Below, piece by piece: positions 49,312 to 64,000 of a DNA stretch of 64,000 nt (positions are counted from its first letter, which is position 1; each line of letters opens with the position of its first letter). Source of the stretch: Gemmiger sp. An120 (GTDB lineage Bacteria; Bacillota; Clostridia; Oscillospirales; Ruminococcaceae). The stretch spans positions 186,001-250,000 of the forward strand of contig NZ_NFLN01000003.1 in the NCBI RefSeq assembly GCF_002160955.1. The letters run 5' to 3'. The position numbers were made by a program, and so were the translations under genes. The notes below the pieces were generated by a model. That model was given only the letters and a program-made list of their open reading frames with translations, made no database searches and was not told the origin of the DNA.

Positions 49312-50337
49312 ATGGAAGGATACGCCTTTGTAACCAAAGAACCGCTTCTGGGGCCTGTTGTTCTGGCCCTTCGGGTGGATGTACCGGGCCGGAAAGAACA
49401 GCTTTGGCTGGGAGAAGAACAGGATGTGGAGGCTGCCCTGCGGGGTAAAGAGCGTCCGCTGTTTCTGGCCCAAACCCGCCCGCTGGGGGCCTTTTGGTGT
49501 GAGTTCGGGCAGACAGCCGCCGAGGGCTGGACGGAGGCCATTTGGGCCCTTTCCGACGCCCTGACGGCGAAGAAACGTTCCCAGCGGGAAGAACGGGAGC
49601 AGGCCGCCGCCCAGCTTCTTTCCCAGCAGGCAGAGGGCAACGGCACCAATGCTGCCGCCTGGTATGCGGCCATTCAGATCTGGGAGATGTATCTGCGCTG
49701 CCGCCGGGGCCGGGACAGCCAGCAGGCGGCCCAGGCTCTGCGGAACTATGCCCAGCTGCTAACACTGCCCTTCGGCCAGTACACCCCGGAGATGGTCCAC
49801 TGGCTCCGGGACAAGCCGGTGATCCCCGTCTGGAACGACCGGCGGGACGGAAAGCTGGAGGTGTGGTATCCCCAGGGGCAAACGCCCTTTGAGTGCGCCG
49901 TGGTGAAGGACTCCCTGCGGCCTGCCCTCATCTATTACCGCCAGCGCATTCTGGACGCCGGGCTGCTCATGCGCCGGTGCAGTCAGTGCGGACGCATCTT
50001 CTTCGGCCCGGACGCCCGCAGCACCCTGTGCAGCGACCGCTGCCGTAAAGCCAGCCGAAAAGCCGCCAAGCGCCAGTTCGACGGCCGGGCCAAGGGCAAG
50101 GACTACGAGCAGGCCTACGACCGGGAGTACATGTTCTGGTACAACCGCATCACCAAACTAAAAAAGGCCGGCGCACCACCCGAACAGATCGGGCGGGCGC
50201 AGGCCGCATTAAAGGAGTTTCGCAAAGAGGCGCTGATTCGTAAACAGCAGGTCAAGGAGAAAAAGCTGCCCGCCACCCAGTTCATTAGCTGGATGATCGG
50301 GCAGGAGGCGGTGATTGAGGGAATTTGCGGAGAATGA
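49312..50337 (+). CDS. Zinc-finger-like protein of unknown function in the island
   Basis: 341 residues. A treble-clef-like Cys set C223-x2-C226-x13-C240-x3-C244 (CSQCGRIFFG...LCSDRC) is followed by a strongly basic helical region (RKASRKAAKRQFDGRAKGKDYEQ), suggesting nucleic-acid binding. The N-terminal 200 residues are helical, with no motif I can name; similar proteins occur in clostridial mobile DNA. The ATG at 49312 follows AGGAGGATAC; the open frame 20 codons upstream is not preferred. It is transcribed opposite to its neighbours. Confidence 0.7.
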   Translation: MEGYAFVTKEPLLGPVVLALRVDVPGRKEQLWLGEEQDVEAALRGKERPLFLAQTRPLGAFWCEFGQTAAEGWTEAIWALSDALTAKKRSQREEREQAAAQLLSQQAEGNGTNAAAWYAAIQIWEMYLRCRRGRDSQQAAQALRNYAQLLTLPFGQYTPEMVHWLRDKPVIPVWNDRRDGKLEVWYPQGQTPFECAVVKDSLRPALIYYRQRILDAGLLMRRCSQCGRIFFGPDARSTLCSDRCRKASRKAAKRQFDGRAKGKDYEQAYDREYMFWYNRITKLKKAGAPPEQIGRAQAALKEFRKEALIRKQQVKEKKLPATQFISWMIGQEAVIEGICGE

Positions 50338-50463
50338 AGAGGAGGTGGCAATCCATGTGGATTGCCACCTCCTTTTCAACGCGCTAAGTTTGTTTATCTG
50401 GATTGCCAGTGGGCACTCCTTTTAAGAAGCCGTTCGTATTGTGCCTGACACGAGTACAAACAA

Positions 50464-52158
50464 TTAGCCAAGTAACTGCCGAATCTTATCCATTAGTAGG
50501 GCCTTACGCTTTTCATAAAATTCTCCAAAATGTTCCAGTTCAAGCGAAACGCCGTCAGGAATAAGCGCCTCTTTGCGGAACACAGCCTTTTGCTCATCAT
50601 TCATATCGTTGTAGTAATCCACAAGCCGCATGTCATTTTTGCTGGCATTTTGCCTGCCTTCAAGAAGATGCAGATTGGGCAGACGGTTGCGATTGCTTCT
50701 CCATTTGTTCCACTCTTCCATCGGGACAGAAACCGGATTTGTTCTGTTGAATCTTTCATCGGGATGTAAATGATCCTGTTCGTATTTGTAATTTTTATTG
50801 ATCCAATCTAATCCCAGGAAATACAATACCTCTCCTGCCACACGGCTTCCTTTTTCGGCATTGAGGATATCGTCTATTTTCCCATCGGTCACACGGAGGT
50901 CGCTTATTTGATTCTCCATCATATCAACAGTTATTTCGTAGTTGTAGCTGTTGATACTACTCTTCATCTGCTGCAATTTGCTGGTGGTGCCGGATTGGAA
51001 ATAGGTGAACAAAACCGCCCGGACTAAATAGGCCCGGATGCCTTCCAGATTCTTTTCATATTCCGGGTTGTAGTATATGAAATAAATGATAGGCAACAAC
51101 ACGTTCCAGCTGTTGGCAAAGCGGCTGACCTCGATTTTCATGCTCTTTAACACAGTTTCCAGGTTTCGGAGCGCCTTTTTAAATTCCTGCCAGTGATTCT
51201 TTAAATCTTCCGCTATCTGTTTGTTGATGTTGGATTTCACAACGTCACCGTACAGCATGAGGGCGGCCCGTACAATAAAATCCGTTCCAAACCCGGCATA
51301 AGGACCTTCCAGAACCTTTCCGAATTCAGTCTTTGCACTTGGCCAGTAGGCTTCCAAAATCGACATGGTGATCTCGTGCTTTTTCAATGCTTTACCGCCG
51401 CTGTTAAAGCGGACAAACATCTCCAACGCATCGTCTTGTTTCATATCTTTAATCTTTGTATAGCGAATCAGTTTTTCTACAAAAATTTTACGGTATAACT
51501 GGTTCAGTATGCCGCGTGCATACTCTTTGCTTTCCGGCGGCACATTGACGATTGCTTTTTCGATGGCCTGTTCCCTTGTGCTGTCCTCTCGGAATTGCGG
51601 GCCTAAAATGTTTTTGACTTCAAATTGAGTCGGGCTCAATTTTCCAATTCTTTCGGCAAACCGGATATCAAATTTCTTGCTGTTGTACTCTTCTTCATCC
51701 ACAGCCAGTCTGTTTTTATTCAGCTCGATGAGAAGTTTGACTACGGTGCCTCCGGCTATCTTCTTTCTTGCGTGTTTCTGCCGGATATACGCCTGACCGT
51801 AAAGCGATAAAAACAGCGATGTCAGCCGCTGCTGGCCATCCAGAACAGCTGTGTCGGTCAAATTTACATTGATACTGCTCAATTCGTAGTTCACGCTATC
51901 GGCCTGTTTTCTGCTGTCGAAAGTGACTTCCGACAAAAAATTGCAGAAATATGTATCCCAACTCACATTGTCGTCATCCACATGCCAAAACAAAAAGGTC
52001 GCAATCGGATAATCAAGCAGGATAGAATCCCAGAGTTTTTCTATCTGCTCCATGCTCCAAACATACTGCCTTTGAAATGCAGGCATAACATATTTTCCGT
52101 TTTTGATATTCTCAAGCGCCTCATAGATTGTGATACTGTCGTCAATCAAAACACTCAT
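50464..52158 (-). CDS. DUF262 / GmrSD-like putative restriction (defence) protein
   Basis: 564 residues. The N-terminal DUF262 (ParB/Srx-like NTPase-nuclease) domain has VMPAFQRQYVW near residue 24 and the signature DGQQRLTSLF from D107. The C-terminal region carries an HNH-like DUF1524 pattern with QDHLHPDERF (D462-H463-L-H465) and LPNLHLLEGRQNASKN. Such DUF262+DUF1524 proteins include GmrSD and related type IV restriction enzymes that cut modified phage DNA. The gene is visibly AT-richer than its surroundings, consistent with recent acquisition. No partner gene or methylase is adjacent. The ATG follows GAGAGG. Confidence 0.82.
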   Translation of the reverse strand: MSVLIDDSITIYEALENIKNGKYVMPAFQRQYVWSMEQIEKLWDSILLDYPIATFLFWHVDDDNVSWDTYFCNFLSEVTFDSRKQADSVNYELSSINVNLTDTAVLDGQQRLTSLFLSLYGQAYIRQKHARKKIAGGTVVKLLIELNKNRLAVDEEEYNSKKFDIRFAERIGKLSPTQFEVKNILGPQFREDSTREQAIEKAIVNVPPESKEYARGILNQLYRKIFVEKLIRYTKIKDMKQDDALEMFVRFNSGGKALKKHEITMSILEAYWPSAKTEFGKVLEGPYAGFGTDFIVRAALMLYGDVVKSNINKQIAEDLKNHWQEFKKALRNLETVLKSMKIEVSRFANSWNVLLPIIYFIYYNPEYEKNLEGIRAYLVRAVLFTYFQSGTTSKLQQMKSSINSYNYEITVDMMENQISDLRVTDGKIDDILNAEKGSRVAGEVLYFLGLDWINKNYKYEQDHLHPDERFNRTNPVSVPMEEWNKWRSNRNRLPNLHLLEGRQNASKNDMRLVDYYNDMNDEQKAVFRKEALIPDGVSLELEHFGEFYEKRKALLMDKIRQLLG

Positions 52159-52265
52159 GGCTTACCTCTCCGCTCTGTATACCTGTTATTTTCAAGATAT
52201 CTGGCCATTTTCTTTTATTGTACAGTCGTTCCATAGTTTTGTCTATGGACAGCTTAATCTACAGC

Positions 52266-52298
52266 AAAAAGACGCCTTTTTATCAAAAGCGTCTTTTT
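52266..52298. terminator. Hairpin upstream of the DUF262 gene
   Basis: AAAAAGACGC (52266-52275) and GCGTCTTTTT (52289-52298) form a stem with A and T flanks. It can terminate the minus-strand tRNA transcript or transcription entering from the island. Confidence 0.7.
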
Positions 52299-52317
52299 TG
52301 TTTATTCCGTATAAACA

Positions 52318-52361
52318 ACAAATCCGAACCCATCGCCAATCGGCACAAGGTTCGGATTTGT
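52318..52361 (-). terminator. Hairpin directly after tRNA-Ala
   Basis: A 13-bp inverted repeat (52318-52330 with 52349-52361) starts 6 bases past the CCA end and is followed on the minus strand by TTGTTGTTTAT. Confidence 0.6.
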
Positions 52362-52367
52362 CTGTCG

Positions 52368-52443
<76 letters not shown>

Positions 52444-52476
52444 ATATTCAAGGCCCTGTCTCAAGGCCGTTTCGTT

Positions 52477-52505
52477 ATTATAGCAAAGAACAAAAGCATT
52501 GTCAA
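52477..52505 (-). promoter_or_regulatory. Promoter of tRNA-Ala
   Basis: On the minus strand TTGACA (complement of 52500-52505) and TATAAT (complement of 52477-52482) with a 17-base spacer: a perfect consensus promoter. Confidence 0.85.
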
Positions 52506-52560
52506 GTACTCAACCGAAGAAAAAAGGAAATGTGTAACTTGACGAAAAAATTCAAAGCTC

Positions 52561-52589
52561 TTGTTTCACATTTCAATTAGGTTTATAAT
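52561..52589 (+). promoter_or_regulatory. Promoter of the V/A-ATPase operon
   Basis: TTGTTT (52561-52566) and TATAAT (52584-52589) are 17 bases apart, giving a leader of roughly 110 bases before the first gene. A second AT-rich stretch (TATATACTATAAATAAG, about 52613-52630) follows. Confidence 0.6.
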
Positions 52590-52704
52590 GAAGCTGATTT
52601 GGCCTTCGCTGCTTATATACTATAAATAAGTAAGATGAGGCGCTGAACCATAAATCGCAACGGCAGGCGTTGTTCCTGTGTTTTTTGGAAGGAGATGTTT
52701 TACT

Positions 52705-53031
52705 ATGAATGGCACAAATGAATTGCTGCGCGCCATTTTAAAGATCGACGAGGAGGAGCGAGCACGCACCCAGGCCACCGAGGAGTATCGCCAAAAAGCG
52801 CAGGCCGATAAGGCCGCTAAGGCAAAGCAGATGGAAGAGCAGGCCATGGAAGACATGCGCCATGATGTGGACGAGTTCGCCCAGGCCGAGAAGGCCCGTG
52901 CCGAAGGTGAGCTTGCCGCCCAGGCAAAGCGCAAGCAGCAGATCCTGGACCAGCTGGACCAGCAGCTGCAGAAAAACAAAGACGCCTGGGTCGACACCAT
53001 CCTGACCCGGGTGTTGGGCGGGGGGCAGTAA
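52705..53031 (+). CDS. V/A-type ATPase subunit G/H (peripheral stalk coiled coil)
   Basis: 108 residues, almost entirely charged helix (EEERARTQATEEYRQKAQADKAAKAKQMEEQ...), consistent with the G (also called H) subunit that pairs with subunit E to form the peripheral stalk. The start at 52705 follows GGAAGGAG; an upstream in-frame start would include that site. It is the first gene of the ATPase operon and is adjacent to subunit C, with a 1-base gap. Confidence 0.75.
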   Translation: MNGTNELLRAILKIDEEERARTQATEEYRQKAQADKAAKAKQMEEQAMEDMRHDVDEFAQAEKARAEGELAAQAKRKQQILDQLDQQLQKNKDAWVDTILTRVLGGGQ

Positions 53032-53032
53032 C

Positions 53033-54091
53033 ATGGGCAACACCCAGGCGTCCAACGCCATTTTGGCAAAGGCGCGGGCGATGTATGGCCGCCGGCTCAC
53101 GGCGCGGAACTATCAGGAGCTTCTGAACTGCCGTGACCTGCCGGATCTGATCAGCTACCTCAAGACCCGCACCTCTTACTCCGAGGCGCTGCAGGCAGCC
53201 AATCCGGCCACCACCCACCGTGCTCAGCTGGAGACGCTTCTGCGGCTCAATCTTTTTGAGCAGTATGCCTCTCTGTGCCGGTACGAAATGAACATCGGCC
53301 ACGACTTTTACCGTTACTTTATCATCCGCAGCGAGGTGCAGGCCATCACCACGCGCCTTCAGGAGCTTCACGCGCCGGACGGCGATGTGTCCATCTACAC
53401 CATGCCGGATTTCATCAAAAAGCATTCCTGCCTGAATCTGAATGCCATGTCCATGGCTACCAGCTTCAAAATGCTGGTGCTGGCGTTGGAGGGAACCCCC
53501 TATGCCAAGGTCCTTCAGCCCTTTGCCGATGATCCGGACTTTGCGCTGGAGAACAGCGGCCTGCTGGAACTGGAAGCGGCTCTGGACAGTTTTGTGAACG
53601 GCCAGGTGGAGCAGATCGCTTCCACCAAGCTTTCGGGCAAGAGCAAAGAGGAAATGCTGTATTTGCTGCGCCGGCAGAGCGACCTGCGGGCCATCGCAGA
53701 TATCTACCGCCTCAAGAGCGTGCTCCGCGCTGACCGGGCCTTTATCAAAAAGCGGGTCAGCCTGAGCGTTTCCAACATGACTCCCCGTCAGTTGGACAAC
53801 CTTATGGATGCCCAGGACGCACAGGATGTCATTCACCGGCTGGTGAACACGCCCTATGCTTCGGAGTTTTACGGTGCGAGTTTCGACTACATCGAAGAAG
53901 GCGTGCGCAAGATCGACTATCGCTGGCATCTGAAAAAGCTGCGCTTTTCCACCAACCCCAGCGTGGTGTTGTTCTGTTATATCTTTTTGGCCGAAAACGA
54001 GCTTACCAACATCGTACATATCATCGAGGGCGTGCGTTACGGCCTTGCCCCGGACGATATCGCCACCCTGCTGGTAGGCGTGGGCGATTAA
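53033..54091 (+). CDS. ntpC: V/A-type ATPase subunit C (d-like)
   Basis: 352 residues, the usual size. All-helical V-ATPase subunit C/AC39 pattern: AILAKARAMYGRRLT, YQELLNCRDLPDLISYLKTRTSY, and the C-terminal FCYIFLAENELTNIVHIIEGVRYG. It couples the central shaft (D/F) to the membrane K ring. The start is 1 base after the preceding stop, in an operon with all other subunits. Confidence 0.92.
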   Translation: MGNTQASNAILAKARAMYGRRLTARNYQELLNCRDLPDLISYLKTRTSYSEALQAANPATTHRAQLETLLRLNLFEQYASLCRYEMNIGHDFYRYFIIRSEVQAITTRLQELHAPDGDVSIYTMPDFIKKHSCLNLNAMSMATSFKMLVLALEGTPYAKVLQPFADDPDFALENSGLLELEAALDSFVNGQVEQIASTKLSGKSKEEMLYLLRRQSDLRAIADIYRLKSVLRADRAFIKKRVSLSVSNMTPRQLDNLMDAQDAQDVIHRLVNTPYASEFYGASFDYIEEGVRKIDYRWHLKKLRFSTNPSVVLFCYIFLAENELTNIVHIIEGVRYGLAPDDIATLLVGVGD

Positions 54092-54103
54092 GGGGGTGCC
54101 GCA

Positions 54104-55069
54104 ATGTTTTTTGACCCCAAAATGCAGCTTGTCTGGGTGGACGGCCCCCTGGAAAAGCTGGACGCATTCATCGAAAACTGCTGTGTGGACGGCAAGCGGG
54201 TGCATCCCGCCCGGGCGCTGGATCACATGAGTGCTTCGGCGGGCTACGCCGCGCTGAACGAGGAAAATCCCTGGGGCCCGCTGGTGGAGCAGATCGAAGC
54301 TTTGGACAAAGGGTTTGAGATCCCGGTGGTGGAACCCACTTTGGCCGACGGACGAGCCCAGGGCACGCGGGATTACCTGGCGGACCTGCAGGCGCGGCTG
54401 GAGACCCACCGCAAGGACCGGGATCTGCTGGAAAAGCAGCTGGAGATCTGCACAAAAGGCGCCGAGTCCTTCGCCCATTTCTCCACGCTGGATGTTCCGG
54501 TGGAACTGACGCAGCAGTGCGAATATGTGAAGATCCGGTTCGGCCGCCTGCCCAAGCGCGGGTATGCGATGCTGCAGAAGGATTTCACTTCCGACCCCTG
54601 CATCTTGTTCGTTCCTTGCAGCGAAGATGACAAAGCTCTCTGGGGCGTTTACTTCGCTCCGAAGAAAGATGCTGCCCGGGTGGACGGGATCTTCTCAGAG
54701 GCGTTCTTTGAGCGCATTCGCCTTCCCGGCGCGGCGGGCACCCCGGAGCAGATCGTGAAAAATCTGCAAAAGAACATCGATATTCTGAACAGCGAGATCG
54801 CCGAGGTGAACGGGCAGATGGCCCGGCTTTGGAACGAGGAAAAATGGAAGGTCGCCGGCATCTACGCTTCGGTGTGCAGCCTTGCCCGGCTGTTTGAGCT
54901 TCGCCGCTGCGCTGCGGTGCGGGGCGCGCATTTCTTCTACTGCGTGTGGGTGGCGCAGCCGGATATTCCGGCATTCACCGAAAGCTGTGCCAGTGTGGGC
55001 GGGCTGAACATCGCTCAGGACATGGTGCTGCCGATGCGCCGCTGGAAACAGGAAAACCCCGAGCAGTGA
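54104..55069 (+). CDS. Second, membrane-less subunit I paralogue (I') of the V/A-type ATPase
   Basis: 321 residues, homologous throughout to the cytosolic half of the next gene. Parallel motifs include DGPLEKLDAFIENCCVDG/DGLLKNLDSVIYNCCLDG, HMSASAGYAAL/HMSGSLGYITL, EYVKIRFGRLPKRGYA/EYIKVRFGFLPKASYA and WGVYFAPKKDA/WGIYFTPLRNA. A coiled coil lies at about residues 90-125. It ends before any transmembrane segment. Normal bacterial operons encode one subunit I of ~600-670 residues with a membrane domain. Here an extra soluble copy may bind stalk (E/G) subunits. The ATG follows AAGGGGGTG. Confidence 0.85.
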   Translation: MFFDPKMQLVWVDGPLEKLDAFIENCCVDGKRVHPARALDHMSASAGYAALNEENPWGPLVEQIEALDKGFEIPVVEPTLADGRAQGTRDYLADLQARLETHRKDRDLLEKQLEICTKGAESFAHFSTLDVPVELTQQCEYVKIRFGRLPKRGYAMLQKDFTSDPCILFVPCSEDDKALWGVYFAPKKDAARVDGIFSEAFFERIRLPGAAGTPEQIVKNLQKNIDILNSEIAEVNGQMARLWNEEKWKVAGIYASVCSLARLFELRRCAAVRGAHFFYCVWVAQPDIPAFTESCASVGGLNIAQDMVLPMRRWKQENPEQ

Positions 55070-55151
55070 AACTGACCGCCCAAAGCCGCCGGCGCGGCGG
55101 CGGTCAACGTGATCGAAGGTCGGTATGACCCGAAAGGAAGATGAGGATACA

Positions 55152-57104
55152 TTGGCCATTGAAAAAATGAAACTGGTGCGGGTGGACGGCCTGCTTAAAA
55201 ATCTGGACAGCGTGATCTATAACTGCTGCCTGGATGGCAACTTCCATCCCGAACCGGCGGTTCAGCACATGTCCGGCTCCCTGGGCTATATCACTCTCAG
55301 TGAGGATAACCCTTACACTTCCCATGTGCAGAAAATGGAGGAGCTGTACCAGCTGGTAGGGGAGAGCACCCCCCCGCTGAAAGCACAGACCATCCGAGGC
55401 ATCCAGCCGGAGGATAAGGATAAGATCCAGGAACTGGCAGACCGCTTGGCCCAGCTGCAGAGCGAGAAAGCGGATCTGGAAAAACAAAAGAGCGAACTGG
55501 AAGAGAAAAAAGCGCAGTTCAGCCATTTCACCGGCCTGGACATGCCCTTTGACGAAATTATCAAGGGCGAATACATCAAAGTGCGTTTTGGTTTTCTGCC
55601 CAAAGCCAGCTATGCCCGTATGATGGTGGCTTATGCCGAGAATCCCCACGTCCTCTTCGTCACATGCAGCGAGGACAAGGGCGGTTACTGGGGCATCTAT
55701 TTTACTCCGCTGCGCAACGCCGACGAGATCGACGGCATCTTCGCCACCCTGTTCTTTGAGCGGCTGCATCTGCCCGAGGCTTCCGGTACGCCGGAGTCCA
55801 TCGTAAAGCAGCTGGGCGAAGAGATCAACGACTGCCAGAAAAAGATCGAGCAGAAGGAAGAAGAGATCACCCGCTGCTGGGCCGAGCAGAAAGAAGGCTG
55901 CAGCGAGATCTATCAGCAGCTGAAGTTGCACGAAGAGGCATTTGACCTGCGTCACTATGCTGCCTACCGCGACAATTACTTCTTCCTGGTGGGCTGGGTG
56001 CCCGCCGCCAAGGCCGATGCTTTTGCCGAAAAGGTCAAGCAGATCCGCCATATGCGTGTGACCATTTCCGACCCGGAAGAAGTGGAGAATGCCACCCCGC
56101 CCACCAAGCTGAAGAACCCCTGGTTTGTCAAGCCCTTCGAGTTCTTCGTGGATATGTACGGCCTGCCCAGCTACGGCGAGATGGACATCACTGCCTTTGT
56201 GGCCATCACCTTCACGGTGCTGTTCGGCATCATGTTCGGTGACCTGGGCCAGGGTGCTGTGCTGGCTGTGGGTGGTTTCATCCTGTGGAAATGGAAGAAG
56301 ATGGCCCTTGCCCGGCTCATCGTGCCCTGCGGCATTTCCAGCATGGTGTTCGGCTTCATGTTCGGCTCCGTGTTTGGCTTTGAAGAGGCGCTGGAGCCTG
56401 TCTATGAGGCTCTGGGCATGTCCGGCAAACCCATCAGCAATTGGCCCGGTGCTCCCACCACAGTGCTGGACACCGCCGCCATCAACCCCATTCTGGTCTG
56501 CGCCATCTTCATCGGTGTGGCGCTGGTGCTGGCGGCCATGGTGCTGCACATCATTGCTGCCTTGCACAAGGGCCAGTGGGGCGAAGCCATCTTCTCCAAC
56601 AACGGCCTGGTGGGCATCCTGGTCTACTGCGGTGGTGTTTCCTTCGTCAGTGATTTCATGAGCGGCCCCCACTTCCTTCCCTCGGGCGTTGCCTTTGCCC
56701 TGATCGGCGGCGGTTTGGTACTGCTGTTCTTCAAGGAGATCCTGATCGGCCTTGTGGATCATCATCCCAACTGGAAGCCCGAAAGCTGGGCGGATTACTG
56801 TATGCAGAACATCTTTGAACTGCTGGAGTATGTGCTGAGCTATTTCAGCAACACTGTTTCCTTCCTGCGCGTGGGCGCCTTCGTGTTTGTGCACGCGGCC
56901 ATGATGATGGCCATTTTCAGCCTGGCGGGCGATCCGGTGAATCCTGTGGTCGTGATCCTGGGCAACGCCCTTATCATCGCGCTGGAGGGCCTGCTTTCCG
57001 GCATTCAGGGCCTGCGTCTGGAGTTCTATGAGATGTTCAGCCGCTGCTACGAGGGCGGTGGCCATCCCTTCAAGGGCGTGAGCCTTACCGACAAGGCTGC
57101 CTGA
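55152..57104 (+). CDS. ntpI: V/A-type ATPase subunit I (full length, membrane)
   Basis: About 650 residues: an N-terminal cytosolic domain with long coiled coil (KDKIQELADRLAQLQSEKADLEKQ), then from about residue 335 a membrane domain with seven or eight helices, including FGIMFGDLGQGAVLAVGG and SFLRVGAFVFVHAAM, where Arg of SFLRV is the essential stator residue facing the K ring. TTG 55152 is chosen because the product then begins MAIEKMKLVRVDG, as in the family, with GAGG 5 bases upstream. ATG 55125 is an alternative, adding nine residues. Confidence 0.92.
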   Translation: MAIEKMKLVRVDGLLKNLDSVIYNCCLDGNFHPEPAVQHMSGSLGYITLSEDNPYTSHVQKMEELYQLVGESTPPLKAQTIRGIQPEDKDKIQELADRLAQLQSEKADLEKQKSELEEKKAQFSHFTGLDMPFDEIIKGEYIKVRFGFLPKASYARMMVAYAENPHVLFVTCSEDKGGYWGIYFTPLRNADEIDGIFATLFFERLHLPEASGTPESIVKQLGEEINDCQKKIEQKEEEITRCWAEQKEGCSEIYQQLKLHEEAFDLRHYAAYRDNYFFLVGWVPAAKADAFAEKVKQIRHMRVTISDPEEVENATPPTKLKNPWFVKPFEFFVDMYGLPSYGEMDITAFVAITFTVLFGIMFGDLGQGAVLAVGGFILWKWKKMALARLIVPCGISSMVFGFMFGSVFGFEEALEPVYEALGMSGKPISNWPGAPTTVLDTAAINPILVCAIFIGVALVLAAMVLHIIAALHKGQWGEAIFSNNGLVGILVYCGGVSFVSDFMSGPHFLPSGVAFALIGGGLVLLFFKEILIGLVDHHPNWKPESWADYCMQNIFELLEYVLSYFSNTVSFLRVGAFVFVHAAMMMAIFSLAGDPVNPVVVILGNALIIALEGLLSGIQGLRLEFYEMFSRCYEGGGHPFKGVSLTDKAA

Positions 57105-57199
57105 CGCTTTTCTTCAGCCAGAACAGGGCGCCGGAGTTTTCCAATGTGTTACCCTGTTTTCAATACACAAGACATTAAATTGATTTGGAGGACCTAACC

Positions 57200-57655
57200 A
57201 TGAATACTTTTCTGACCATCTGCCTGATCGTTCTGCCCCTGAGCCTGCTCATGGGCTTTGCCGCCTACCTGGCCCGTCAGTCTGCCAAGGGCATGCCTGT
57301 CAAGCGCACCCTCAGCCTGAACATCACCGCCTTTGTGGTGGTCCTGCTGCTGTCCGCCTGCTTTGCCTTCGCCGCAAGCGCTGAGAGCGAGGCCACCACC
57401 GCTGTTATGACCGCTGCTGAGCGCGCTGCCAGCAACGAGAGCATGGGTCTGGGCCTGATCGCCGCCGCTCTGGTTACCGGTCTTGCCGGCATTGGCGGCG
57501 GTATGGCTGTGGCTGCTGGCGCTCCTGCCGCTATCGCCGCTGCTTCCGAGGACCCCAAGAGCTTCGGTAAGAGCCTGATCTTCGTGGCTCTGGGCGAATC
57601 CATCGCTCTGTACGGCGTTGTTATCTCCATCCTGATCCTGAACAAACTGGTATAA
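57200..57655 (+). CDS. ntpK: V/A-type ATPase subunit K (ring proteolipid)
   Basis: 151 residues forming four helices (two hairpins). The second hairpin is a typical c-subunit (GLAGIGGGMAVAAGAPAAIAAASEDP and FVALGESIALYG, ion-binding Glu E133). The first hairpin lacks an equivalent carboxylate and is more divergent. E-S...Y resembles Na+-binding c-subunits, but the Gln expected in the preceding helix (xGIGQG) is Gly here, so H+ versus Na+ specificity is unclear. The ATG follows TTGGAGG. Confidence 0.92.
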   Translation: MNTFLTICLIVLPLSLLMGFAAYLARQSAKGMPVKRTLSLNITAFVVVLLLSACFAFAASAESEATTAVMTAAERAASNESMGLGLIAAALVTGLAGIGGGMAVAAGAPAAIAAASEDPKSFGKSLIFVALGESIALYGVVISILILNKLV

Positions 57656-57668
57656 AGGGGGCGCAGCA

Positions 57669-57977
57669 ATGCGTTTCTTTCTGATCAGCGACAACACCGA
57701 CACCCAGACCGGCATGCGGCTGGCGGGCATCGAAGGCGTGGTGGCCCACACCGCCGAGGAAGTGACCAACGCTTTTGAGCTTGCCCTTGCCCAGCCGGAT
57801 ATCGGCATGATCCTGGTGACGGAAAAGATCGCCGACGATTTCACCGAGATCGTCAACGACGCGAAGAAGGACCAGGAGGGCCCGCTGGTGCTGGCCATCC
57901 CGGACCGGCACGGTTCGGCCCTTGGCCGTGACCGCATCACCCGCTATGTGCGCGAAGCCATCGGCGTTAAGATTTGA
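57669..57977 (+). CDS. ntpG: V/A-type ATPase subunit F
   Basis: 102 residues with the CheY-like subunit F fold: MRFFLISDNTDTQTGMRLAGIEGVV, IGMILVTEKIADDF, PLVLAIPDRHGS. It binds subunit D in the rotating central shaft and can modulate ATPase activity. The ATG follows AAAGGGGGCGCAGC, 13 bases after subunit K. Confidence 0.93.
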   Translation: MRFFLISDNTDTQTGMRLAGIEGVVAHTAEEVTNAFELALAQPDIGMILVTEKIADDFTEIVNDAKKDQEGPLVLAIPDRHGSALGRDRITRYVREAIGVKI

Positions 57978-57987
57978 GGTGCAGCAA

Positions 57988-58572
57988 ATGATTGAAGAAA
58001 ACGAGCGCGCGGCAAAATTCATGCAGGCCATCCAGCGGGATGGCGAAAAGCGCCGTACCGCCATCATCCAGGCCATCGACGAGGAGATCGCCGCGGAGCT
58101 GGAAAAAGTGAAGACCGCCGCCGAGGCCAAAGCGCGGCAGATGGGGGACTATGAGAAAGTCCGCCTGCAGGAAGAGACCAACCGCAAGCTGTCTCACAGT
58201 GTGGTGGAGACCGGCGCTGAGCTGGCTGCCCGCCGCAGCGAGATCGCTCAGGAGGTGTTTGACGCCTGCGAAGAGCGGCTTGCCGCCTTTACCGCAAAAC
58301 CGGAATATGCCGACTATCTGAAAAAGAGCGCTGATGCGCTGCTGGCACTGCTTCACGCGGACAAGGCCGTGTTCTATGCACGTCCGCAGGACGTGGAGGC
58401 TGCCAAGTCGGCTGTTCCCGCCGGCTGCGAAGTGACCGCCGACACCACCATCCGTCTGGGCGGCCTGCGCGCCAAATGCGGCGCGGTGGAGGCGGACGAC
58501 ACGTTGGATATGAAGCTGGAAGCCCAGAAAGACTGGTTCCTGCAGAATTCCGGCATGTCCATCGCCCTTTAA
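57988..58572 (+). CDS. ntpE: V/A-type ATPase subunit E
   Basis: 194 residues: an N-terminal long amphipathic helix (EENERAAKFMQAIQRDGEKRRTAIIQAIDEEIAAELEKV) and a globular C-terminal domain, as in stalk subunit E, partner of G. The ATG at 57988 follows GAGGTGCAGCAA; an upstream in-frame start at 57922 would lie within the F gene and is unlikely. Confidence 0.9.
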   Translation: MIEENERAAKFMQAIQRDGEKRRTAIIQAIDEEIAAELEKVKTAAEAKARQMGDYEKVRLQEETNRKLSHSVVETGAELAARRSEIAQEVFDACEERLAAFTAKPEYADYLKKSADALLALLHADKAVFYARPQDVEAAKSAVPAGCEVTADTTIRLGGLRAKCGAVEADDTLDMKLEAQKDWFLQNSGMSIAL

Positions 58573-58596
58573 TTTCGAAAACCGAGGTGAACCGAA

Positions 58597-60354
<1,758 letters not shown>

Positions 60355-60381
60355 CAAGGGAAAGGAGCGAAAGAGAGACAT

Positions 60382-61791
60382 ATGATCCTTGAACATGTTG
60401 GCTTAAGCCAGATCAACGGCTCGCTGGTGGTCCTGGACGGCGTGCAGAACGCCTCCTATGACGAGATGGTGGTGATGAAGCTCACCGACGGCACCCAGCG
60501 TGTGGGCCGTATCGTGATGATCGAGGGTGACAAGTGCGTCATCCAGGTGTTTGAAGGCACCACCGGCTTTTCGCTGGACAACACCCGCACCACCCTTTCC
60601 GGCCATCCTATGATGGTGGACCTGAGCCCGGAAATCCTGGGCCGCACCCTGGACGGCCTGGGCCGCCCCATCGACGGCCTGGGTGAGATTTATCCTGAGT
60701 TCCGCCGCGATGTGAACGGCTCGCCCATCAACCCGGTGAGCCGCGTCTATCCCCGGAACTACATCCGCACCGGTATTTCTTCCATCGATGCGCTGGCCAC
60801 CCTGATCCGCGGCCAGAAGCTGCCCATCTTCTCCGGCTCCGGTATGAAGCACAACGAGCTGGCGGTGCAGATCGTGAAGCAGGCGGACGTTTCCGATGGC
60901 GAGGACTTCGCCATCGTGTTCGCCGCCATGGGTGTGAAGAACGACGTTGCTGACTACTTCAAAAAGAGCTTTGAGGCCGCCAACGTTATGGACCGTGTGG
61001 TCATGCTGCTGAACCTGGCCAACGACCCCATCGTCGAGCGTATCATCACCCCCCGTGCGGCCCTGACCATCGCTGAGTACCTGGCCTTTGACCTGGGCAA
61101 GAACATCCTGGTCATCCTCACCGATATGACCAGCTACTGCGAAGCTCTGCGTGAATTCTCCTCCTCCAAGGGCGAGATCCCCGGCCGTAAGGGCTACCCC
61201 GGCTACCTCTACTCCGACCTGGCGTCGCTGTATGAGCGCGCCGGCATCATCGAGGGCCGCAAGGGTTCTGTGACGCAGATCCCCATTCTGACCATGCCCG
61301 GCGACGACATTACCCATCCCATCCCCGACCTGACCGGCTACATCACCGAGGGCCAGATCGTTCTGGACCGCGGCATGGATGCCACCGGTGTTTATCCGCC
61401 GGTGAGCGTGCTGCCCAGCCTGTCCCGTCTGATGAAGGACGGCATCGGTGCCGGCTACACCCGCGAGGATCACAACCCGCTGGCAAACCAGCTTTTCGCC
61501 ACCTATGCCCGCGTGCAGGACGCCAAGGCTCTGGCCAGCGTTATCGGCGAAGAGGAACTTTCTGCCAGTGACAAGCGGGTCATGGAGTTTGGCCGTGCCT
61601 TTGAACAGAAGTTCGTGGGTCAGGGCAACACCAACCGTTCCATCGAGGAGACGCTGGACCTGGGCTGGGAGCTGTTGTCTATGCTGCCCCGCGAGGAGCT
61701 GGACCGTGTGGACCAGGTCATGCTGGACCACTACTACAAGCCGCAGGTAAACAATGCCCATCGTGACCTCGGCACGATCCTCAAAAAGTGA
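60382..61791 (+). CDS. ntpB: V/A-type ATPase non-catalytic subunit B
   Basis: 469 residues. [15 protein letters not shown] and [17 protein letters not shown] (degenerate P-loop, as expected for B), and the conserved [37 protein letters not shown]. It alternates with subunit A in the hexameric head. The ATG follows GAAAGAGAG. Confidence 0.97.
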
Positions 61792-61816
61792 GCCTTAACA
61801 GAGAGGAGGCTGCCGT

Positions 61817-62425
61817 ATGGCACAGGTTTTTCCCACAAAATCGAACCTGATGGCGCAAAAGCGCAGCCTTGCGCTTGCCAGCCAGGGCTATGACCTGATG
61901 GACCGCAAGCGGAACATCCTCGTGCGGGAAATGATGCAGCTGATCGACCGGGCGGCGGTCATCCAGGACGAGATCGCCACCGCCTACTCTACGGCTTATA
62001 AGGCTTTGCAGCGTGCAAACATCACTTTGGGCGTGGTGGGTGAGTTCGCAAAGACAGTGCCGGTGGAGACCGGCCTCAAGCTGGACTACCGCAGCGTCAT
62101 GGGCGTGGAGCTTCCCATTGTTAAAATGGAGGAAAGCGCCCCCGGCCTTTACTATGGGCTGGATTCCACCAACAGCCAGTTGGATGACGTGTATCTGAAA
62201 TTCTGCGAGGTTAAGCGCCTCACAGTGGAACTGGCTGAGGTGGAGAGCAGTGTCTATCGCCTGGCTGTGGCCATTCAGAAGACCCAGAAGCGCGCCAACG
62301 CCCTGAACAACATCATGATCCCCCAGTTCACCGCCACCATCAAGTACATCACCGAGGTGCTGGAAGAAAAGGAACGGGAGGATTTCTCCCGCCTGAAGGT
62401 CATCAAAAAGCAGCGGGACGGTTGA
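61817..62425 (+). CDS. ntpD: V/A-type ATPase subunit D (central shaft)
   Basis: 202 residues, mostly long antiparallel coiled coil: MAQVFPTKSNLMAQKRSLALASQGYDLMDRKRNILVREMM and the C-terminal helix KRANALNNIMIPQFTATIKYITEVLEEKEREDFSRLKVIK. It is the rotor axle inside A3B3, paired with F. It is the last gene of the ten-gene operon and a strong terminator follows. Confidence 0.95.
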   Translation: MAQVFPTKSNLMAQKRSLALASQGYDLMDRKRNILVREMMQLIDRAAVIQDEIATAYSTAYKALQRANITLGVVGEFAKTVPVETGLKLDYRSVMGVELPIVKMEESAPGLYYGLDSTNSQLDDVYLKFCEVKRLTVELAEVESSVYRLAVAIQKTQKRANALNNIMIPQFTATIKYITEVLEEKEREDFSRLKVIKKQRDG

Positions 62426-62449
62426 ACCGCCACTGCAAAACTGAAAAGC

Positions 62450-62486
62450 AAAATCCCCTTTGCGGAATTGAAGCAAAGGGGATTTT
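62450..62486. terminator. Bidirectional terminator after the ATPase operon
   Basis: A perfect 14-bp stem (62450-62463 with 62473-62486) is followed by TTTTTTC and separates the operon from the convergent DUF1266 gene. Confidence 0.9.
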
Positions 62487-62501
62487 TTCTTTGTTTTCCT
62501 G

Positions 62502-63341
62502 TCACAGAGTGAAGCCCAGTTTGCGCCGAGCAGGCCAGGGGAAATCGCGCCACTGGCCGCCGGAACCGTCGGCTTTGCCCATCAGCAGGGAAGTGGTAGC
62601 GTCGGCAAGATAGCCCAGATATCCTGCGGCGGGGCTGTTGCAGAGCATCTTCCACATCAAACCGCCGAAAAGGTAGGACTGGGCGAATTCCCGCCAGCCT
62701 CCCAGGTCCTGGGCAGCACGCTGGGCCAGGTCCCACAAAATGCCTTGGGCCTCCTCTGGGGTGATCCAGCCCAGATAGCTGCCCCAGCGGGCCAGCATGG
62801 CGGCGCGGCCTGTGTCCCATCCGGCCATAAAAGCAGGAGTGTACCGGACTTTGTAGTGCTGGGCAAAAGCCCAGGCACGGATCACTCCATCCCGATCGTC
62901 CTCGTCTTCGTCACCGGTCATCAGTTCCTCCGGCGAATCTGCTTCGCAGTAGAAACGGTACCGCTCGGTGTATCCTGCCTGGCTCAGATAGCGGATGGTC
63001 TCCAGCAGTTCGCCCCGCCCGTCAATGCCCCAGGAGCGGCGTACCACCGAGAGGGCCTGCTGTTCCAGCACGGGAATGTGTTCCTCCACGTCCAGACCGT
63101 CCAGGCTGTGATCGTTCAGGGTGGACACGATGCCCGAAAGAAGGATGCCGAACCGGCCCCAAAGCTCCGGATCCCGGCCATATTCCGTTGGTGCGGGCTC
63201 GGGCAGAGCTTCCAAACGGGCCATGGTCTCGTCCAGCAGAACGTAAAGTGTGTCGTCAGTCTCATCTTCTTCATCCAATCCGGGCCCTTCCTCTTCATTT
63301 TCCATGGCAAGGGTCTCCAGAGCAGCTGCCAGCACACCCAT
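62502..63341 (-). CDS. DUF1266 domain protein
   Basis: 279 residues. The C-terminal half shows the DUF1266 pattern: VIRAWAFAQHYKVRYTPAFMAGWDTGRAAMLARWGSYLGWITPEEAQ and a Trp/Phe-rich end. The N-terminal ~60 residues are acidic and low complexity (NEEEGPGLDEEDETDD). The function of the family is unknown. The start is uncertain: ATG 63341 lies 2 bases after the upstream stop without a strong site, and ATG 63305 is possible. It is the last of a minus-strand cluster. Confidence 0.75.
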   Translation of the reverse strand: MGVLAAALETLAMENEEEGPGLDEEDETDDTLYVLLDETMARLEALPEPAPTEYGRDPELWGRFGILLSGIVSTLNDHSLDGLDVEEHIPVLEQQALSVVRRSWGIDGRGELLETIRYLSQAGYTERYRFYCEADSPEELMTGDEDEDDRDGVIRAWAFAQHYKVRYTPAFMAGWDTGRAAMLARWGSYLGWITPEEAQGILWDLAQRAAQDLGGWREFAQSYLFGGLMWKMLCNSPAAGYLGYLADATTSLLMGKADGSGGQWRDFPWPARRKLGFTL

Positions 63342-63343
63342 GT

Positions 63344-63679
63344 TTAATCTTCGCCGAACAGCTGGTTCATCACAGCTTCGGTGCTGACGGAGGCGGCTTC
63401 GGCCACCCGCTGATTTATCATCAGATGCAACTGTTCCTGGTCCGCCGCCATCTGAGCCATAGTCTGGGCGTCAAACACCTGCCCCAGAATTTCCACCTGC
63501 CGCCGGGCATTGGCTGCCGGTTGTTCCGCTTCCAATGCGGCGTTGTTCTGCGGCGAGGCATCCGGTTCAGGAGAAAGGGATGCGGCCAGAGCTTCGCTTT
63601 TTTCCTCCGCTTTATGCAGACTTTCAAGGGCTTGCGCCTGTGCTGCCTTCGCGCGGTTCATGATCTCATTGATGTCCAT
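63344..63679 (-). CDS. Small hydrophilic protein of unknown function
   Basis: 111 residues, helical and Ala/Glu/Gln-rich (MDINEIMNRAKAAQAQALESLHKAEEKSE...), with NARRQVEILGQVFDAQTMAQMAADQEQLHLMINQRVAEA in the middle. I do not recognise a family. The ATG at 63679 is preferred, because AAGGAGG abuts the in-frame ATG at 63685. It is translationally coupled on both sides: 14-base overlap with the upstream small membrane gene and a 2-base gap to DUF1266. Confidence 0.65.
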   Translation of the reverse strand: MDINEIMNRAKAAQAQALESLHKAEEKSEALAASLSPEPDASPQNNAALEAEQPAANARRQVEILGQVFDAQTMAQMAADQEQLHLMINQRVAEAASVSTEAVMNQLFGED

Positions 63680-63851
63680 TGCCATCCTCCTTTTCGTCAG
63701 GCAAGGTGTGCCAGACTGGCGGCTGCCTGTGTCGGAACAAAAAACGCTTTGTTCGTTCTAGCAGAAATTCCACAAATCGGAACCAAAGCTGGCCGAATAT
63801 CGTCACCGCCACGAGCAGGCCCAACATCCAGAAAATCTCATCCCATGGCAT
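63666..63851 (-). CDS. Small single-pass membrane protein
   Basis: About 61 residues: MPWDEIFWMLGLLVAVTIFGQLWFRFV forms one membrane helix, followed by a basic cytosolic tail (LLERTKRFLFRHRQPP). The start at 63851 follows GAGG; the frame is open upstream to 63872, but that part overlaps the preceding gene. Function unknown; it is part of the DUF1266 cluster. Confidence 0.55.
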   Translation of the reverse strand: MPWDEIFWMLGLLVAVTIFGQLWFRFVEFLLERTKRFLFRHRQPPVWHTLPDEKEDGNGHQ

Positions 63852-63858
63852 CACTGCC

Positions 63859-64000
63859 TCATTTCTTGGCAAAGCGGTTCATGAAGAAATCCGTGAAGGC
63901 TGCCAGCTCCTCATCCTGAGAAACATATACATACAAACTTTCGCCTTCCAGCCAGTCGTAGGCGTTGATGGCGATGTATGCCTGTAAAGCGTTTGCGCAA
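63859..64000 (-). CDS. C-terminal end of a gene running off the window
   Basis: The minus-strand frame is open from the window edge to TGA at 63859-63861, giving about 46 residues (NALQAYIAINAYDWLEGESL... ELAAFTDFFMNRFAKK). It overlaps or abuts the small membrane gene and is probably the upstream member of the same cluster. Too little is visible to name it. Confidence 0.5.
   Translation of the reverse strand, partial: CANALQAYIAINAYDWLEGESLYVYVSQDEELAAFTDFFMNRFAKK

Follow-up and report, generated by a model that had tools for sequence, protein, structure and literature searches.

The window analyzed here, a 64,000-nucleotide stretch of the genome of Gemmiger sp. An120, carries a complete V/A-type ATPase operon on the + strand (~52678-62425). 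Its gene order is G-C-I'-I-K-F-E-A-B-D, where I' encodes a soluble counterpart of half of subunit I. The features of the operon, with the evidence for each, are listed below.

52678..53031, + strand: subunit G-like coiled-coil open reading frame (place before C, homology to the same frame in relatives)
53033..54091, + strand: subunit C, homologue of eukaryotic d (PF01992, 4.9e-58)
54104..55069, + strand: I', soluble half of subunit I, 321 aa, ATG start (homology to I, orthologues, purifying selection, model)
55073..55106, + strand: candidate GC-rich RNA hairpin in the I'-I gap (folds of single sequences, no shuffled controls)
55152..57104, + strand: subunit I, 650 aa, TTG start (PF01496, 9.5e-30; start conserved in the relatives read)
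57200..57655, + strand: subunit K, rotor ring proteolipid, 151 aa (PF00137, 2e-13)
57669..57977, + strand: subunit F (PF01990, 7.1e-22)
57988..58572, + strand: subunit E (PF01991, 4.5e-10; start placed by alignment with relatives)
58597..60354, + strand: subunit A, catalytic (PF00006, 6e-73; NCBIfam PRK04192.1 above cut-off)
60382..61791, + strand: subunit B (PF00006, 6.6e-76; NCBIfam PRK04196.1 above cut-off)
61817..62425, + strand: subunit D, rotor shaft (PF01813, 2.8e-55)

The subunit G-like frame starts with GTG as listed, has an in-frame ATG 27 nt downstream, and matched no curated family in Pfam or NCBIfam. The mechanical open reading frame of subunit E begins at TTG 57922, and several relatives align from the methionine at 57988. 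For subunit I, the mechanical ATG at 55125 would give a protein of 659 residues and the TTG at 55152 gives one of 650. The ATG is probably not the true start, because the relatives that we read share a TTG or GTG start, which here is 55152, and because loci L039-L043 and L048 list no in-frame ATG upstream of the shared start; the length of 650 residues in the initial annotation was therefore right. At the group-A loci read, the start codon of I is TTG or GTG and that of I' is ATG, the exceptions for I' being G018 (GTG) and G380 (TTG). A second ATP-synthase alpha/beta-type gene pair lies on another contig of the same genome and presumably belongs to an F-type enzyme. A tRNA gene (52371-52443, - strand) lies immediately before the operon in the opposite orientation and was the only match in an Rfam scan of positions 50000-64000.

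The hairpin between I' and I is absent from the list of + strand terminators and could set the I':I ratio. Other I'-I hairpins were predicted in several Fournierella-group loci (L034, L036, L037), but we rejected the hairpin as a general feature, as G025 and G137 have an I'-I gap of a mere 12 nt, without a hairpin. A separate I' promoter was also rejected, as the interval between C and I contains no promoter-like site on the + strand. One terminator-like match (54917-54929, + strand, 5 pairs) falls inside I'; the 4 promoter-like and 11 terminator-like matches of the region are not above those in shuffles (3.5 and 9.5, respectively).

The I' protein and its predicted fold

In a BLASTP alignment of 295 columns that includes 3 gaps, I' and the adjoining subunit I are 39% identical (56% positives). 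The match (E 5e-67) is far beyond chance and is collinear over I' residues 6-298. The C-terminal end of I' (residue 321) corresponds to the linker preceding the membrane half of I. I' is thus without the C-terminal multi-helix membrane domain that faces the rotor ring, and the next open reading frame is a separate, complete I. The initial annotation had described the 321-residue product at 54104 as a collinear match to the cytosolic half of its neighbor, ending before the membrane domain and encoded between C and I; the alignment bears out the first two statements, and the Pfam matches of the neighboring genes place I' between C and I. We ruled out that I' is a broken subunit I, as a complete I follows directly and I' is intact in relatives. 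In genome G021 (L045), subunit I is split into overlapping frames of 331 aa (cytosolic) and 376 aa (membrane half), through either a real split or a sequencing frameshift, and the region read contains no complete I; G021 was left out of the I' counts and yet is included among the 24 halves of the 119-row tree discussed below.

Family models barely register I'. It had no significant Pfam match, including to PF01496, and its matches to the NCBIfam subunit I models (PRK05771) were weak, with the best at 7.2e-8 and 31.5 bits compared to a cut-off of 670. A sequence search of the PDB with I' matched no V-ATPase chain, subunit C included. As it missed the subunit I chains as well, the lack of a subunit C match carries little weight.

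An AlphaFold2 model of I' built from 12 sequences was of moderate confidence (pLDDT 72, pTM 0.54). Its predicted order of elements is lobe, coil, distal lobe, coil, lobe, which is that of the collar domain of I, and a model of the I half (pLDDT 73) is arranged almost identically. The coils and proximal lobe were better modeled, and the distal lobe was low in both models (block means of 46-63 in I'). Thermus subunit I (6r0z_N) was the best PDB match to the I' model (Foldseek E 1.4e-13), and superposition by VIA-align gave a Z score of 15.9 and an rmsd of 5.4 over 294 residues, compared to Z scores of up to 9.3 for unrelated coiled-coil chains; further matches included eukaryotic subunit a and the cytosolic domain 3rrk. 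I' is predicted to take the two-lobed coiled-coil collar fold, and in element order its model resembles Thermus 6r0z/6qum chain N, the 3rrk crystal structure, and eukaryotic a-NT. Unlike the cytosolic domain of subunit I, however, I' stands alone as a protein: its chain stops short of the membrane domain, and its operon also encodes a complete I.

We also compared eight I' rows with positions that are invariant in nine group I rows and conserved at 80% or more in 34 other I rows. At the 21 such positions in the distal lobe, I' had the same residue invariantly at 14, as the majority at 5, and a different residue at 2. In the proximal lobe, the corresponding numbers were 5, 4, and 3 for 12 positions of the N-terminal part, compared to 1, 0, and 1 for 2 positions of the C-terminal part. 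The positions kept in I' may represent the fold core rather than a stalk-binding surface.

Distribution and selection in the family

Of 396 sampled family genomes, 16 carry I', at a total of 17 loci that matched a profile of I' (A1) with scores of 483-633 bits and have open frames of 321-365 aa; the next-best match, at 295 bits, was a complete I. Among the 190 family genomes that gave any match, 174 had none of the I' type, and no I' match of the family search contained a stop. The carriers belong to five genera of the Gemmiger/Fournierella group (g1, 3 genomes; g58, 5; g20, 1; g25, 5; g18, 2), across which I' orthologues are 46-100% identical, and named contigs with I' are from uncultured Gemmiger sp. 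(2) and Candidatus Fournierella (4). In the regions read, I' lies between C and I at 13 of the 17 loci, the window included. At the other four (G153, G318, G221, G305), I directly follows I' and the C side falls outside the region read. Three of the four genomes of the window's own genus carry I', and the fourth, which is 75% complete, gave no match of any kind.

One relative in an I'-bearing genus has no I'. In G134, C directly precedes I, and this genome is of the same genus as G018 and G258, which carry I'. In trees, I of G134 groups with I of G018 and G258, and therefore I' was probably lost in G134. Elsewhere in the 59-row tree, I and I' branch alike, as expected for joint vertical descent.

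Several other loci depart from the common arrangement. G127, a g1 bin, contains a second V/A-ATPase operon of g25 type (L043, G127:C84) whose I' is very near that of G305 in the tree; this operon is probably contamination of the metagenome bin. In genus g54 (L069, L070, L071), the single I scores 290-295 bits with the I' profile, compared to 226-254 bits for I of the I'-bearing genera, and groups with G520 near I' with moderate support in the 59-row tree. Extra copies of the distal lobe occur within subunit I of G033 (L046, 919 aa), G062 (L051, 737 aa), and G132 (L018/L047, 806 aa), all in the same family. These copies are in the cytosolic half in G033 and G062, and G033 and G132 have a further match within the membrane half. 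In these proteins the extra lobes sit inside I, whereas I' is a free protein with both lobes.

Selection on I' was assessed from Nei-Gojobori counts using our own script. Between the window and five relatives, dN/dS was 0.047, 0.075, 0.093, 0.099, and 0.219 for I' and 0.050, 0.054, 0.069, 0.076, and 0.123 for I of the same relatives, with I' evolving faster in four of the five pairs. Synonymous change was saturated between G018 and G258. In all four further pairs with unsaturated dS, I' was again faster (0.13-0.21 compared to 0.04-0.06); these pairs are G137/G207 (0.128 for I' and 0.038 for I) and three pairs from the other lineages discussed below (0.212, 0.195, and 0.142 for the half-I gene and 0.055, 0.061, and 0.045 for I). 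I' is under purifying selection and is less constrained than I in most pairs. The initial annotation had held that I' is not decaying, and had named absence from close relatives or relaxed selection as signs of a transient duplicate. The frame is intact in relatives, I' is present in most of the genomes examined from its own genus, and dN/dS values of 0.05-0.22, well under 1, point to purifying rather than relaxed selection. Judged from these comparisons, I' is not a transient duplicate and is a selected copy that has been kept long.

Half-I genes in other lineages

Open reading frames of half-I type also directly precede I outside the Gemmiger/Fournierella group, with lengths of 312-353 aa and, in G816, 378 aa measured from stop to stop. 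The carriers are G520 (family f24), G913 and G816 (family f71), and 8 of 39 genomes of genus g244 (G715, G1411, G1410, G1420, G1390, G1407, G1389, G1419); G891, also of family f71, has no half-I gene. C was read before the half-I gene in G520, G715, G1411, G1389, G1419, G1407, G913, and G816. The eight half-I proteins measured are 32-54% identical to I of their own operons (for G715 and G1411 over the aligning part only) and end 2-25 residues past the aligned part, at or near the domain linker. In the g244 search, the match in G1407 was the only one reported to contain stops (one TGA and one TAA). The open frame of G1407 (312 aa) starts just inside this match, and the stops therefore lie upstream of the frame.

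These counts depend on how the searches were made. Three of the searches were limited to matches at E 1e-45, 1e-45, and 1e-40, respectively, and overlooked divergent half-I genes; that of G715 came to light only when its region was read, and that of G816 only when its region was fetched. The class sample gave a match in 72 of 196 genomes, where open frames of less than 450 aa were those of G000, G913, and G942, the last of which was dropped as a contig end cuts the frame. Cut frames of G1240, G1251, and G1395 were dropped as well, and G1304 (355 aa frame) stands outside the counts. Rows for trees were chosen from the available loci and do not comprise all loci.

Multiple results argue against a single origin of the half-I genes. 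First, trees of 119, 59, and 49 cytosolic halves needed 5, 4, and 5 label changes, respectively, where the 119-row tree includes the split subunit of G021. Second, half-I rows formed one group in 0% of 200 bootstrap trees for both the 59-row and 49-row sets. Third, a single clade of all 23 half-I rows, a group fixed by gene architecture, was rejected by the AU test (p 2.6e-5). Finally, AU tests of pairwise groups, which were picked after seeing the trees, rejected clades joining the Fournierella-group I' with that of G520 (6.9e-5), of G1389/G1419 (2.6e-8), or of G913/G816 (1.4e-79), and a clade joining G520 with G1389/G1419 (7.7e-47). Because the trees reject one I' clade, half-I genes either arose at least four times or were homogenized with their neighbors. 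The plain reading of these phylogenies is that half-I genes had separate origins in different lineages, although whole-length gene conversion between tandem copies is possible and could mimic this pattern. In five windows along the copies of G520, G1389, G1419, and G913, each copy was in every case closer to the I encoded beside it than to any I' of group A, a result that argues against patchy gene conversion but not against conversion of the whole length. The origin of the G715-type g244 copies and of the G1407 copy, which lie on long branches, is unsure.

The presence of half-I genes at a like position in other lineages makes a function in the complex more likely, and suggests that such pumps have acquired an additional part, either stalk-holding or regulatory, on more than one occasion.

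Possible roles of I'

The collar of A-type enzymes, which touches both EG stalks, is formed solely by the cytosolic domain of I (PMC6131620), and this domain likewise makes up the collar in the known two-stalk enzymes (PMC6131620, PMC5758568). For a conserved free collar module encoded in the operon, the simplest reading is an additional collar or stator subunit that would bind the feet of the EG stalks. We favor this reading and give it about an even chance: I' would be a soluble paralogue of the stalk-docking (collar) domain, kept as an extra, anchor-free subunit of the V/A-ATPase. Its gene would have arisen when either the 5' half of ntpI or the entire gene was duplicated in tandem, in the latter case with subsequent loss of the membrane half. 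The lobes of I' would bind the EG feet, like the cytosolic domain of I, and I' would join the stator collar beside I and C. Docking in such a collar would be divided between an anchored module and a free one, much as eukaryotic V-ATPases divide this task between subunit a and the free subunits C and H. A search of open-licence PMC titles and abstracts found no description of a duplicated or soluble subunit I.

The main rival to an extra subunit is a role in assembly or regulation, which we consider possible but doubtful. As a factor that is not a permanent subunit, I' would bind the EG feet or C on free V1 or on intermediates and, by blocking their access to I, silence the pump or time its assembly. 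A protein that retains the collar sequence without the membrane anchor suits this role, and so do the patchy presence and faster evolution of I'; the ATG start of I', compared to TTG or GTG for I, could also place I' in excess. The Pfam search, however, revealed no added sensor domain in I', the gene sits among structural genes, and conservation spans the full length of the collar domain.

If I' is an additional subunit, a more far-reaching version, which we regard as rather unlikely, is that several bacterial lineages independently evolved a free collar subunit that docks one more EG stalk, at the third A/B pair, making a three-stalk machine. Eukaryotic V-ATPase has three stalks, and its free subunits C and H share the collar job with subunit a (PMC6131620). 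I' resembles subunits C (Vma5) and H in being soluble, and these subunits dock stalks together with subunit a, but the likeness is one of analogy and not of membership. The I' model matched a subunit C structure weakly (1u7l, Foldseek E 2.4e-4, TM 0.29), which may reflect only the coiled-coil dumbbell. Against a changed stalk number, the genome gave a single match to the E family (PF01991, at a threshold of E 0.1) and the operon has one copy of G; the rest of the gene set shows no sign of such a change.

I' might instead pair with I through its coiled coils and brace a two-stalk collar, with neither a third stalk nor regulation. The long coiled-coil pair is kept in both predicted models, but the two proteins share least in their coil segments (1/44 and 3/54 columns invariant and shared), and we judge bracing to be improbable. 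Least probable is a nearly neutral by-product of frequent partial duplication of ntpI that is later lost, with recurrence reflecting mutation bias: tandem duplication of the 5' gene half yields exactly such an arrangement, and the patchy distribution and the lack of I' in G134 agree with it, but five genera retain I', at identities as low as 46%, with dN/dS far below 1 and open frames throughout the family matches.

An asymmetry has been noted for two-stalk enzymes. In Thermus, the asymmetric stalk pair is said to likely contribute to the instability of one rotational state (PMC5758568), and the Enterococcus enzyme is described as having asymmetric dual stalks (PMC10382590). Electron microscopy of the V-type ATPase stator of Caloramator fervidus, an organism placed under Clostridia in one source (PMC2359735), is cited among the first sightings of peripheral stalks in a review (PMC6131620).

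The difference between the two peripheral stalks of the prokaryotic V/A-ATPases studied and the three of the eukaryotic enzymes poses an evolutionary question. A natural bacterial operon that encodes a further docking module lacking an anchor, known here from separate lineages but missing in a close relative (G134), offers a direct comparison of stator architecture, assembly, and regulation. The third-stalk reading, if true, would be a parallel to eukaryotic V-ATPase, in which free subunit C docks the third stalk.
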